Source of the DNA: Lyngbya sp. HA4199-MV5
Lineage (GTDB): Bacteria > Cyanobacteriota > Cyanobacteriia > Leptolyngbyales > Leptolyngbyaceae
Direction: 5' to 3'
NCBI GenBank assembly: GCA_019359375.1
Contig: JAHHHL010000003.1
Location: 1-64,000 of the forward strand
DNA: 64,000 nt
The notes beneath the pieces were generated by a model. The model did not search any database and had not been told where the DNA came from. It was given only the letters and a program-made list of their open reading frames with translations. A program made the translations under genes and the position numbers. Positions 39,675 to 46,691 of this stretch are shown piece by piece. The stretch's first letter is position 1; every line of letters begins with the position of its first letter.

Positions 39675-40841
39675 ATGACCTCTCGAAAACTGTCTGAGTC
39701 TGACAAACAAGAAATTTTACAGCTCTATCGGCAACCAGGGGAGACAACCTCCACCCTGGCAAGCCGCTATGGTGTGAGCAATAGTACCATCAGCCGGATT
39801 CTCAAGCAGAGTTTCTCTGAAGCAGAATATGAAGCGCTGATTCAACAAAAGCGGGGAAATCGCACCTCAGAGACCGCTTCACTTCAGACTTCAGACTCTG
39901 AAGCATTCGATGCTGCACCCGCCGTTGAGCTTGAAGCATCAGCCATCCCTGACGCAGTGATTGCGAATGAAACCCTGGTGCCCAAAGTGATGGAAGTTGC
40001 GCGTGAGCAGCCTGATTTGAGGGAACCATTGGAGACCAAATCGGTGGCTGTAGAATCGGCAGCAATATCATCGCCCGATCGCCCCGCAGCAGACCCTTCA
40101 GATGAATCACCCACTGTCACCACCAACGGGCGACGGCTACGGAAGCGCTCTTCTGCACCCTCCGAATTGCCGCCAGCCCCCCCGGTTATTGCACCGCCGA
40201 TCGTCAAAACAAAGCCGCTTGATCGAGCAGAGTCGCTACCGATAGAGCCAGTTGAAGCGGAAGTGCCGTCTTCTGGTGCGGTAGTCGAAGGCTATTTTGA
40301 CCCACCCTACGACGACCAAGATTCGGTTTATGTGGCAGCAGCAGAGACAGCAGAAGTCATCACTGGCGAAGACTTACTGCCAGAAGAAGGCGATTTGGAG
40401 AACGACGACGATCTGGATGATGACGGTCTTGATGATGATGGTTTAGATGATGACCTGGACGAGGATGACCTGGACGACGATCTAGAGGATGAGGGTCTTT
40501 TCGTCGGAGGTCGCATTGCTGGAAAGGCACTGGTTCAAGTGTTGCCGCTGGCAGAAGCCTCCTTGCCACGCACTTGTTATCTAGTCGTCGATCGCGCGGC
40601 GGAGTTAATTGCCAGACCCTTGAAAGAATTTGGCGATTTGGGGCAAATTCCTGAAGCCGAAATTTTAGAAAAAACGCTGCCGATTTTTGACAATCACCGG
40701 GTTGCGAAGCGCTACTCAAACCCCCGCACGCAACGGGTTATTAAGCTGCCTGATGGTCAAGTGCTGCAAAAGACCTCTTCGCATCTGCAAGCAAAAGGCA
40801 TTACGCGCTTGCTGATTGATGGGCAAGTCTACGCGCTGTAA
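39675..40841 (+). CDS. HTH protein with acidic repeat region
   Basis: A 388-residue protein. Residues 1-60 form a helix-turn-helix of the transposase/Hin-like type (KQEILQLYRQPGETTSTLAS, then YGVSNSTISRILKQ). A long low-complexity centre includes a stretch near 235-275 built of DDDGLDDD-type repeats. The last about 120 residues are a folded, conserved domain (LPRTCYLVVDRAAELIARPL, then KRYSNPRTQRVIKLPDGQ). The layout is known from cyanobacterial genomes and is often labelled transposase, but no catalytic domain is present, so it is more likely a DNA-binding regulator or nucleoid protein. Confidence 0.78.
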   Translation: MTSRKLSESDKQEILQLYRQPGETTSTLASRYGVSNSTISRILKQSFSEAEYEALIQQKRGNRTSETASLQTSDSEAFDAAPAVELEASAIPDAVIANETLVPKVMEVAREQPDLREPLETKSVAVESAAISSPDRPAADPSDESPTVTTNGRRLRKRSSAPSELPPAPPVIAPPIVKTKPLDRAESLPIEPVEAEVPSSGAVVEGYFDPPYDDQDSVYVAAAETAEVITGEDLLPEEGDLENDDDLDDDGLDDDGLDDDLDEDDLDDDLEDEGLFVGGRIAGKALVQVLPLAEASLPRTCYLVVDRAAELIARPLKEFGDLGQIPEAEILEKTLPIFDNHRVAKRYSNPRTQRVIKLPDGQVLQKTSSHLQAKGITRLLIDGQVYAL

Positions 40842-42496: not shown

Positions 42497-43381
42497 TTAC
42501 GGCGTGCGATTGGGTTGATGGTCTTTGGTCGCATTCTGCTTTTGAGGTGCAACCACGTCTGGCAACGCCCGATCGAGCACGTACAGCCACACCAACCCGA
42601 AGAGACCGATCGCAATCTGGGTCAGGCTGACGATTTGAGCAACTCTCAACGGACCGAGCATCAAGCTATCGGTACGCAACCCCTCAATCCACACGCGCCC
42701 GCAGCTATAGGCAACCAGATAGACCAAAAAGAGGGTGCCAACCTTCAGGCGCGAGGTTTCTTTCAGTCCCCAAAAAAAGAGCGCGATCAGAAGACCAAAG
42801 ACCATTAGATTCCACAGCGATTCGTAGAGGAACGTGGGATGAAAGTATTCAAACCCCTCATAGCCAACTGGACGGCGTTCTAAAGGAATGTAAAGCTTCC
42901 AGGGCAAATCGGTCGGGCGACCAAACGCTTCTGAATTAAAGAAATTACCCCATCGTCCGATCGCCTGCCCCAAAATGAGCGATGGTGCCACTAAATCTGC
43001 CAGTTGCCAGAAGGAAACATGACGCAGGCGGGCAAACAGCAGACTGGCGACTAGCCCACCCAAAATGGCACCGTGGATGGCAATGCCGCCTTTCCAAATC
43101 GCAAGAATCTGGTCAGGATGCTGAGCATACTCCTGCCACTGAAACGCCACGTAGTAAAGCCGTGCGCTGGGAATCGCCGCAATGACCAGCCAAAGTGCCA
43201 GATCGCTGAGTAAGTCTGGGTTAACACCACGGCGGTTAGCCAGCCATTGAGCGAGCGTTACTCCAATCAGCACAGCCGACGCAATTAAAAACCCGTACCA
43301 CCGAATAGAAAAAGGTCCCCAGTCCAACAGCATGGGTCCAGGAGACGTAAAAAGGGCGATCGGTAAATCAACGAAAGGCAT
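42497..43381 (-). CDS. lgt: prolipoprotein diacylglyceryl transferase
   Basis: A 294-residue polytopic plasma-membrane enzyme that transfers diacylglycerol from phosphatidylglycerol to the lipobox Cys of preprolipoproteins. The Lgt signature [20 protein letters not shown] is intact, with HGAILGG upstream and [12 protein letters not shown] downstream, both carrying essential residues of the family. About seven membrane helices. ATG 43381 matches the family start ([16 protein letters not shown]); the longer frame to 43528 is not conserved. Confidence 0.96.
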
Positions 43382-43648
43382 GTCACAAAAGTGGAGAAAT
43401 GTACGTCGCAATCCAGATGAGCCATTGAAGGATGAGTCATTGAAGGCATAAGCAGTCATGATGCGGCATGACCATACACTCAAAATTGTAAGTTGCACTG
43501 AGACTTTTGACCGAACCGGGAGAGGCAACGGCGTGAAACGGTTCAGATTTACAAATCTTCACAAAGAACAAGCTCCCTGTTTTGCAAATACATCTCAGAA
43601 TGGGCATTCTTACCATAACCGCCCTTGAACAGCCAACGATGGTTACTT

Positions 43649-45361
43649 ATGCCCAACCCGTCTCTCCTGAGCACACTTGAAAAGGTTTCTGCCAGTGCAA
43701 CGTCAGCAGAGGCTGCCCCATTTGATTGGGCTACGGTGCATCAGACTGTACTCAAGTTTGTGAATCCACTTGCGTCTGAACAGCCGATCGCACCTCCAAC
43801 GAGTTCCGTTCTACTGGCAGCGATGCAGCGGTTGGTAACCATCATCAACACAGTACAAGCGTCTCCGCTGGTTGTCTCAAAAGGCTCACCGAGCGAGACT
43901 CCAAAACTTGAGACCCTTCTTCCCTACGTGAGCGAAGAAGCCTACGACGTGCTGGATGCATTACGTTCAGATTTAGCCGTTGCCACTAGCAGCCAGTCGC
44001 CCCTGGGCAGCGATCGCGCTCCATTGAGTCTCAGTTCCTCAGCTTCGCACTCGTTGATCACGATCGAGAGCCTGATTCCATCTCTGCTTTGGCAGATAGC
44101 CCGCAGTGCTTACAGTGCCATGCATCTGATTGAAGGCATCCGGGCAAAATGCTGGCTTCCAGATCAGGGCTGGGTGAGTGGCATGTTGAGGTTGGTGGTT
44201 ATGCTAGAGGTCGAAGCGCCTACCATCCGCTGGTGTTTTGATTTAGCCACTGGCTACCCGGCTGAGTCATTGTTGGAAGCAACCGCGATCGTCCAATCGG
44301 ATGAATCGGCACTACCCATTCGTCATACAGCAGTCGATGCTAGTGACGATTCTCCCTCCCAGGTGAAGCATCAGCTTCAAACCATTTTGCGCCACCTGCA
44401 AGCCAGGGTGCCTGGACTGTCTACCTTCCTTCAAGGGGTGCCGATCGAGCTACTGCAACCAGGGGCAGACTGGCAAGGGGGCAACCTCCGACTGCACTTA
44501 GGCTTTTCCTTTAGCCCACAAGCGGATGGCGATGAGGCGATACCCAGACAACCGGAGTTAATTGAAGCCGAACTCATGGAGGAAACGCTGGCTCAAACGA
44601 ACGCTTTGCAACGGGCTACAGCGACAAAGCCGACGATCGCGAGTTTAGTTGCCACTCACGTCCCGGTTGTTCAGCCTGTCGGGCGATCGCTCCGTCCCAC
44701 AACCCTGGTACGCTTGACCGATACCGAAGCACTAGAGCGTTATACGCAGCAAACAGCACAACAGCAGCTTGAGCAAGCTCTGTCCCAACTATGCAGTCAG
44801 CAGATCATAGAGGAGGAAGAAGAGTCGCAACTGACGCTCATTGTCCAAGCCGCGATCGCCCATTGCGCCCATCAACCCAGCGCCTCTGGTCTTGAGCGAC
44901 TACATCCGATGCTACTGATGGATGAACTCGTTCCTAAACTGCTGTGGTCGATCACCAGCAGCACGTATGACATGATGCAGCTTGTAGGGGGTATACCCGC
45001 TCATGTGCTGCAACCCAGGGCACACTGGCAGCAGGGCACACTCCGACTACTGGCAGCACTGCATTTAAAGGCAGCCGATGTAGACTATCAGCTTGACCTC
45101 TCCACCGGACGATCGATCGAAGCAGACGTGCCGCTAGACTTAGGCACCATCGTGCAAACAAACACAACGATCGGCTCACAACCCACGTCGATCGCAACCA
45201 TCATCAATCAGGTAGAGCAGCAGCTTCACGAGATGATGTTGGCATATCGATTGTTAAAGAACGGTGCGGCGATCGCATGGCTCGAAGACGTGGAGCAAGA
45301 CTGGCAATCTGGCACAATGAAGCTGAGTGTAAGCCTTGCCTTTGTTGCGGATGCGCGTTGA
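43649..45361 (+). CDS. tandem-module protein coupled to a GvpL/F homologue
   Basis: A 570-residue soluble protein I do not recognise. It contains two similar modules (about 140-290 and 425-566). A motif of about 28 residues, G-[IV]-x-A/I-x-x-L-x-P-x-x-x-W-x-x-G-x-L-x-L, occurs four times, at 163-190, 263-290, 449-476 and 539-566. Each module opens with LIPSLLWQIARSAY or LVPKLLWSITSSTY. The central linker is Gln/Glu-rich (RYTQQTAQQQLEQALSQL) and probably helical. No signal or membrane segments. Its TGA overlaps the ATG of the GvpL/F gene, so the two products are made together and may bind one another. ATG 43649 was chosen. Confidence 0.8.
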   Translation: MPNPSLLSTLEKVSASATSAEAAPFDWATVHQTVLKFVNPLASEQPIAPPTSSVLLAAMQRLVTIINTVQASPLVVSKGSPSETPKLETLLPYVSEEAYDVLDALRSDLAVATSSQSPLGSDRAPLSLSSSASHSLITIESLIPSLLWQIARSAYSAMHLIEGIRAKCWLPDQGWVSGMLRLVVMLEVEAPTIRWCFDLATGYPAESLLEATAIVQSDESALPIRHTAVDASDDSPSQVKHQLQTILRHLQARVPGLSTFLQGVPIELLQPGADWQGGNLRLHLGFSFSPQADGDEAIPRQPELIEAELMEETLAQTNALQRATATKPTIASLVATHVPVVQPVGRSLRPTTLVRLTDTEALERYTQQTAQQQLEQALSQLCSQQIIEEEEESQLTLIVQAAIAHCAHQPSASGLERLHPMLLMDELVPKLLWSITSSTYDMMQLVGGIPAHVLQPRAHWQQGTLRLLAALHLKAADVDYQLDLSTGRSIEADVPLDLGTIVQTNTTIGSQPTSIATIINQVEQQLHEMMLAYRLLKNGAAIAWLEDVEQDWQSGTMKLSVSLAFVADAR

Positions 45362-46059
45362 TGTACACCTATGCTTTCTGTAAAACGCCTCTCGCGCCTT
45401 TAACCCTGCCCCACGGCATCGTTGCTTTGGTGCAGATGGTTCAAACCGAGCAACTCTCAGCGCTCGTTGAACCGATCATCTCTTTGGATAGGCTCAACCA
45501 GGACGATACGCTTCTTGTACAGGCTGTTCTCGCGCACGATCGCGTCATTCGTAGCCTGTTCGCCCAAGCAACCCTTTTGCCGCTGCGCTTTGGTACAAAC
45601 TTTAGCTCCCTGGAACGCTTGAAAGCACATCTACACACTCAGCAGCAGACCTATCTCAGCAAGCTGACCCAACTAGATGGGAAAGCCGAATATACACTCA
45701 AATTCACGCCTTTAGAGCTGACAGAATTAGCCATCGCCCCAGACATCAAGGGCAAGGATTATTTTCTTGCCAGGAAGCAGCAGTTTCAAACTCAGCTATT
45801 ACACCAACAGCAGCAGCAGGAAGCGTTTACGCATATCCAACAGGTCATTACACAAACGTATCCCGACTGCCGACTAAACGAGGAGCCGACAGGCATTAAA
45901 ACGGTCTACCTGCTGCTTGAGCGCGATCGGGAACCGCAGCTTCGCCAAACAATCCGTACATTACAAGCGCAACATTCTGAGTGGCAAATTGCCATAGGAG
46001 AAGCCTTGCCCCCTTACCACTTTGTTAGCGATACCGCTGCGCATGACGTCGATCGCTGA
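45361..46059 (+). CDS. GvpL/GvpF family gas-vesicle-type protein
   Basis: A 232-residue protein of the GvpL/GvpF family: it opens YTYAFCKTPLAPLTLPHGIV, has AHDRVIRSLFAQATLLPLRFGT (the family's hallmark central strand-loop) and a coiled segment around RKQQFQTQLLHQQQQQE, ending with the second ferredoxin-like half (KTVYLLLERD). GvpF/L proteins are minor components needed to assemble gas vesicles and bind GvpA. No gvpA, gvpN, gvpJ or gvpK is visible in the window. It is translationally coupled (TGATG) to the tandem-module gene, suggesting a dedicated partner or a role outside flotation. Start ATG 45361. Confidence 0.88.
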   Translation: MYTYAFCKTPLAPLTLPHGIVALVQMVQTEQLSALVEPIISLDRLNQDDTLLVQAVLAHDRVIRSLFAQATLLPLRFGTNFSSLERLKAHLHTQQQTYLSKLTQLDGKAEYTLKFTPLELTELAIAPDIKGKDYFLARKQQFQTQLLHQQQQQEAFTHIQQVITQTYPDCRLNEEPTGIKTVYLLLERDREPQLRQTIRTLQAQHSEWQIAIGEALPPYHFVSDTAAHDVDR

Positions 46060-46241: not shown

Positions 46242-46691
46242 TTAAGTTAACAAAGGCAAGCGGTAAGGGCTTCTAACGCTCTTGCAAAGCCGTAGCTCAG
46301 TTCCTTGATGATTCCACTGAACTTGATCGAAGATTTGGTGAAGAAGGTACATACCACGACCGCACTCTTGCTCATTACAGGGTAGCGACTCTTCAGATTC
46401 GACCTCAGACATCTGGGGTGTTTGAAACCCAGCACCCTGGTCTGAGATGACCCACCAATGCTGATTGGCAACAACCGAAAAGCGAACAAGAACCGTTTTG
46501 CTTGGGTCTAAAGCGTTGCCGTGCTTGGCAGCGTTCACCAACGCTTCTTGTAACCCTAGCCGAATCTCTGCCTTCCACCGATTCGGAATTTCCGCCAACA
46601 ACACATCCAAAATTGGAATGAGGTACAGCGTAGAGGCGAAGCTAACCGTGTTCCAGTGGCGCTTGACAGGACGAGATGAAACAGCAATCAC
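46242..46691 (-). CDS. anti-sigma-type serine kinase (RsbW/HATPase-like)
   Basis: A 149-residue single-domain GHKL ATPase: N-box LQEALVNAAKHGN, G1 box ISDQGAGF, and G2-type ECGRGMYLL. Proteins of this shape bind and inhibit sigma factors or phosphorylate anti-anti-sigma (STAS) partners on Ser. No partner gene is adjacent, so the target is unknown. The start is GTG 46691. The N-terminus carries a short strand (HWNTVSFASTLYLIP) as usual. Confidence 0.85.
   Translation of the reverse strand: MIAVSSRPVKRHWNTVSFASTLYLIPILDVLLAEIPNRWKAEIRLGLQEALVNAAKHGNALDPSKTVLVRFSVVANQHWWVISDQGAGFQTPQMSEVESEESLPCNEQECGRGMYLLHQIFDQVQWNHQGTELRLCKSVRSPYRLPLLT

Follow-up and report, generated by a model that had tools for sequence, protein, structure and literature searches.

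The gene pair described here likely consists of gvpW, split from the main gas-vesicle cluster of its genome, and of a gene for a 570-aa protein which represents a hitherto undescribed gas-vesicle accessory factor working together with GvpW. Both genes are located on the + strand of the window, as the whole 64-kb stretch of analysed DNA is called here. The upstream gene (43649..45361, + strand), defined by its open reading frame (ORF), a family alignment and its pN/pS ratio, encodes a MazG/KGK-repeat protein and is the candidate accessory gene. The downstream gene (45361..46059, + strand) encodes a GvpL/F superfamily protein of 232 aa and is assigned to gvpW by Pfam, tree and BLASTP analyses.

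The ORF of the 570-aa protein starts with an ATG at 43649 and ends with a TGA at 45359-45361. That of the GvpL/F protein starts with an ATG at 45361-45363 and stops at 46057-46059, giving a TGATG overlap with the preceding stop. The overlap is conserved in congeners, and so is the start at 43649, as the congeneric proteins open with MPN or MPK at the equivalent site. A sequence-only reading of this DNA had reported a translationally coupled pair of a GvpL/F and a 570-residue protein with four 28-residue motifs in two modules, a description confirmed by the ORFs, by shuffled sequences and by profile comparison with hhalign. The neighbours, given for context only, are a divergent upstream lgt gene (42497..43528, - strand; Pfam LGT, E=2.5e-82) and a convergent downstream gene for an anti-sigma-like HATPase (46242..46691, - strand; Pfam HATPase_c_2).

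GvpW and the gas-vesicle cluster on contig C21

The Pfam family GvpL_GvpF (PF06386) matches residues 1-222 of the window protein with 123.7 bits (cut-off 23.6, E=1.7e-35), which corresponds to a full-length domain. In BLASTP comparisons, the protein shows 37-48% identity over the full length (149-192 bits) to GvpW proteins encoded within gvp clusters; to the GvpF of its own genome, identity is about 32% over only 62 residues, and BLASTP scores to GvpF are 26-32 bits. It also remains under the NCBIfam cut-off for GvpF (26.7 of 350). In a maximum-likelihood tree, every W protein including that of the window falls into one clade apart from GvpF, with a support of 100/100. On this sequence evidence, the window protein is identified as GvpW, displaced from the main gas-vesicle cluster of the genome.

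A position of W apart from the main cluster is already known, the gvp genes of Microcystis being given as gvpAACNJXKFG + V + W (PMC9501494), and in the family of the window genome W is nearly always found outside the gvp cluster. With cyanobacterial GvpW of the Microcystis and Anabaena gvp clusters (PMC7204071, PMC9501494), the window protein shares the W clade, the sequence identity given above and, in the case of Microcystis, the location outside the cluster. It differs in that its gene follows that of an undescribed 570-aa protein and lies on another contig than gvpA to gvpV.

The source genome (G000; 6.9 Mb, 95 contigs, completeness 100) holds just one GvpL/F besides the window protein, on contig C21. 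The gvpA-containing gvp genes of this genome are located there and comprise gvpA, a coiled-coil gene in the gvpC position, gvpN, a gvpJ-type gene, gvpK, gvpF and gvpG. Beyond gvpG, on the opposite strand, an ORF of 106 aa (L003:11726-12046) encodes a homologue (E about 1e-17 to 1e-21) of the protein whose gene separates gvpG from gvpW where the cluster is intact. Because of this position and the published gvp order, in which V and W are downstream of gvpG (PMC7204071), this homologue family was taken as GvpV. By gene content, C21 is thus assigned the order A-C-N-J-K-F-G-V without W; no second GvpW was found on C21, and no further gvp gene besides the GvpL/F within the 64-kb window. The sequence-only reading had noted the latter correctly, the gvp cluster being on another contig; what it called a lone GvpL/F is gvpW, the sole member missing from the cluster on C21.

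The 570-aa protein was also considered as an expanded GvpV, which was rejected, as GvpV is a separate protein of about 105 aa and present on C21. Cyanobacterial GvpV, the usual neighbour of GvpW, is a coiled coil ending in xEY, and the 570-aa protein is unrelated to it in length and sequence.

In the gvpK gene of C21 (L003:9099-9560), a second, GvpA-like domain (PF00741, E=7.3e-14) is encoded at the C terminus of GvpK, and a GvpA-like PF00741 match just upstream of gvpF is also present in most gvp-positive cyanobacteria searched. G307 and G300 each carry two or three copies of gvpF; in G307, one W is located inside the gvp cluster and a second beside a 570-aa homologue.

Repeat modules and MazG-like segment of the 570-aa protein

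The four repeat motifs are LIEGIRAKCWLPDQGWVSGMLRLVVMLE (residues 160-187; 44126..44209, + strand), FLQGVPIELLQPGADWQGGNLRLHLGFS (residues 260-287; 44426..44509, + strand), LVGGIPAHVLQPRAHWQQGTLRLLAALH (residues 445-472; 44981..45064, + strand) and KNGAAIAWLEDVEQDWQSGTMKLSVSLA (residues 537-564; 45257..45340, + strand). All are anchored on W-x-x-G, with the lowest raw pairwise score for the fourth. The best 28-residue self-match of the protein scores 71, whereas 200 shuffled sequences averaged 31 and never exceeded 49, so that the repeats are not due to chance. Profiles of the first and second half-repeats are homologous (hhalign, E=2.7e-12), and the protein therefore contains two modules of two homologous repeats each. 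These are module A (residues 128-292; 44030..44524, + strand) and module B (residues 413-570; 44885..45358, + strand), both consisting of two KGK-like half-repeats.

KGK (PF08872) is the only Pfam family found in the 570-aa protein (39.9 bits, curated cut-off 25.6), and no NCBIfam model scored above its cut-off. Among 23 aligned homologues, KGK was matched in 21 (E<=1) and MazG, weakly, in 8. The W-x-x-G-x-L-x-L core of the protein lies inside the region matched to the KGK family; known members of this family comprise about 120 aa, whereas here four KGK-like repeats stand behind a MazG-like segment. A single-chain AlphaFold model of module B, built with eight module sequences from four species (pLDDT 85.2, pTM 0.79), predicts two helices and a long beta hairpin, twice. 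A Foldseek search with this model against PDB and viral structures gave nothing at E<=0.001, and hence no clue to function. The full-length model from four sequences had a pLDDT of 39 and was unusable.

The MazG-like N-terminal fragment (about residues 44-112; 43778..43984, + strand) keeps the EE.Y(E/D) motif and has no second ExxD motif. With the family profile of the 570-aa protein, the true MazG proteins of numerous cyanobacteria were recovered at E about 1e-11 to 1e-19, among them that of the window genome itself (C86), and E. coli MazG (3cra/3crc) was matched as well (E=3.8e-8), always through residues of about 45-115. Aligned with the MazG of its own genome, the 570-aa protein has LRSPxGG...TPE.L.PYV.EEAYE in common with it. 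Of the metal-binding motifs of MazG (EExxE, ExxD), the first is partly kept in the family and the second (EELGD) is missing in 23 of 23 sequences. An active MazG pyrophosphohydrolase can be ruled out by sequence due to the absence of this second motif. The 570-aa protein thus shares the N-terminal segment with the MazG NTP pyrophosphohydrolases (3cra/3crc; PF03819), but is truncated and has no complete active site.

In nearly all homologues, one MazG-like segment is followed by two modules. Two homologues of about 215-227 aa, L120 (G053) and L112 (G274), both from gvp-positive genomes, consist of a single module without the MazG part and possibly represent a minimal form of the protein. The homologue L105 (G051:C1:3996.5-3998.2 kb) is distributed over a 419-aa and a 197-aa ORF that overlap in different frames, either by a sequencing error or by decay; in L111 (G042:C9:633-637 kb), with 1079 aa, about 600 linker residues separate the two modules.

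Compared with a congener, the 570-aa gene has a pN/pS of 0.30, indicating purifying selection. This value is higher than that of W (0.21), and both exceed those of gvpK, F, G and N (0.07-0.13), so that the 570-aa gene evolves faster than the core gvp genes; gvpV was left out of the comparison due to a poor match. A literature search, conducted largely outside subscription journals, found no work in which KGK or MazG was connected with gas vesicles. Within the searchable literature, the 570-aa protein is undescribed and lineage-restricted, and the gas-vesicle system itself is of a known kind. A gvp cluster elsewhere in the genome does exist, as the sequence-only reading had considered, but the 570-aa protein is not a known accessory of it.

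Co-occurrence and linkage with gvp genes

Counted by matches through the KGK-like modules, the 570-aa family is present in 13 of 386 genomes across the phylum, all of them among the 56 gvpA-positive ones (hypergeometric P=3e-12, shared ancestry ignored). In 58 relatives, it was found in 28 of 43 gvp-positive versus 0 of 15 gvp-negative genomes, and within the family of the window genome in 19 of 34 versus 0 of 8. No homologue without gvpA was detected in the phylum sample, the relatives or the family sample. Since 15 of the 43 gvp-positive relatives are without a homologue, gas vesicles do not generally require the protein. In the phylum sample, it is more common with a displaced W (10/17) than with a W inside the cluster (2/36; P=5e-5, ancestry ignored).

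KGK proteins are widespread among cyanobacteria (PMC5827413, PMC3141437) and another KGK gene exists in the same genome, so the 570-aa protein might be a housekeeping KGK-domain protein located beside gvpW by chance. Given the strict nesting of its family in gvp-positive genomes and the repeated adjacency to gvpW, we regard this as very improbable.

Intact gvpW genes were also observed in two gvpA-less genomes (L087:2847-3509 in G009 and L088:2719-3396 in G011), either as relics of a recent cluster loss or with a W function without vesicles. Together with the location of the window pair outside the gvp cluster, they would fit a pair which has departed from gas-vesicle work and builds a complex serving some other process. 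Such a departure is unlikely to have taken place, as the 570-aa homologue does not occur without gvpA in any of the samples, the two orphan W genes are without a 570-aa homologue, and the vesicles of this genome would have no W other than that of the window. Furthermore, the W neighbourhood of G011, with a zinc-ribbon gene and a mobA-like gene, is as in the gvp-positive G024, and the W of G009 shares the zinc-ribbon neighbour, which fits cluster loss.

Linkage classes were tallied by hand from the match tables of 34 genomes. In 21 of them, the 570-aa homologue immediately precedes gvpW on one strand, at a distance of no more than about 320 bp; in three others (G016, G018, G027) the two genes are divergent and within about 3 kb of each other. 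In the remaining ten the two genes are unlinked: G019 and G057 are single-contig chromosomes, in G042 and G178 both genes are far apart on one contig, and in G023, G036, G043, G046, G053 and G258 they are on different contigs. The gvpW of G019 lies between a cobM-like gene and the anti-sigma-like gene known from the window, without the 570-aa homologue beside it; the position of W thus looks older there than the pairing with the 570-aa gene. Adjacency in 21 of 34 genomes supports a non-random pairing.

With regard to the sequence-only reading, the coupling is hence not fixed; linkage has been lost in some relatives while co-occurrence with gvp genes is kept. Of the possible undescribed system that it proposed, the undescribed protein and the non-random pairing hold, but a separate system is not supported, and a role other than in gas vesicles disagrees with the absence of homologues from the sampled genomes without gvpA. 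The 570-aa protein probably represents a novel accessory factor of gas vesicles and not part of a separate system.

The loss of linkage in ten genomes that keep both genes, as well as G274 with its single-module homologue and no W detected, might also indicate a gas-vesicle function of the 570-aa protein that does not involve GvpW, such as that of a regulator or of a clamp at the shell, with adjacency reflecting only co-regulation. The frequent adjacency on one strand and the overlap conserved in congeners argue against this, and we consider it rather unlikely, somewhat less so than a departure from gas-vesicle work.

Proposed role of the pair in gas-vesicle assembly

For an accessory factor working with GvpW, a possible, still tentative reading is that of an assembly factor with a previously unknown fold, made up of a MazG fragment and a KGK-repeat scaffold, which would organise GvpW by physical contact and be required for vesicle formation in those lineages that carry it. 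The overlap of the gene for a GvpL/F-type W with that of a four-repeat protein suggests co-translational assembly, and the two proteins may bind each other while being made. MazG-type helices dimerise, and the MazG-like helices of the 570-aa protein, devoid of a complete catalytic site, might self-associate likewise. KGK has been described as enigmatic and suggested to mediate protein-protein contacts (PMC5827413). In Halobacterium, GvpL acts as a hub to which almost every other Gvp protein binds, and GvpA is bound by GvpF (PMC9501494); the GvpL/F superfamily hubs are shared with this assembly platform, whereas a MazG/KGK partner is not described there. The four repeats could offer surfaces to GvpW and perhaps to other Gvp proteins. 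The GvpL hub, the dimers of MazG helices and the presumed KGK contacts lead us to propose a GvpW scaffold in gas-vesicle assembly, which would organise or stabilise a GvpF/W-type assembly complex in vesicle nucleation or growth, and would do so in lineages with W mostly outside the gvp cluster. In this strain, GvpW and the 570-aa protein would act in the assembly of any vesicles formed.

Gas vesicles serve as acoustic reporters, and most mined contiguous operons failed in E. coli, and genes outside the annotated operons were suggested as possibly required (PMC10344784). The 570-aa gene and gvpW are concrete candidates for such missing genes, as both are, in this lineage, located outside the main cluster and would be overlooked by operon mining. 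If the assembly-factor reading is true, the 570-aa gene would be one of these suspected extra genes. In addition, the protein gives a possible function to the KGK-like repeats.

A degenerate-peptide scan with the family alignment yielded no sufficiently conserved stretch, and a scan with the window protein alone pointed to the relatives Stenomitos rutilans, Stenomitos frigidus and Tildeniella nuda. Upstream of the pair, the window (39675-40841) encodes a protein of 388 aa in which an N-terminal HTH_23 domain is accompanied by a long, Asp-rich acidic stretch; this protein recurs at a similar distance upstream of the pair in Stenomitos and Tildeniella.
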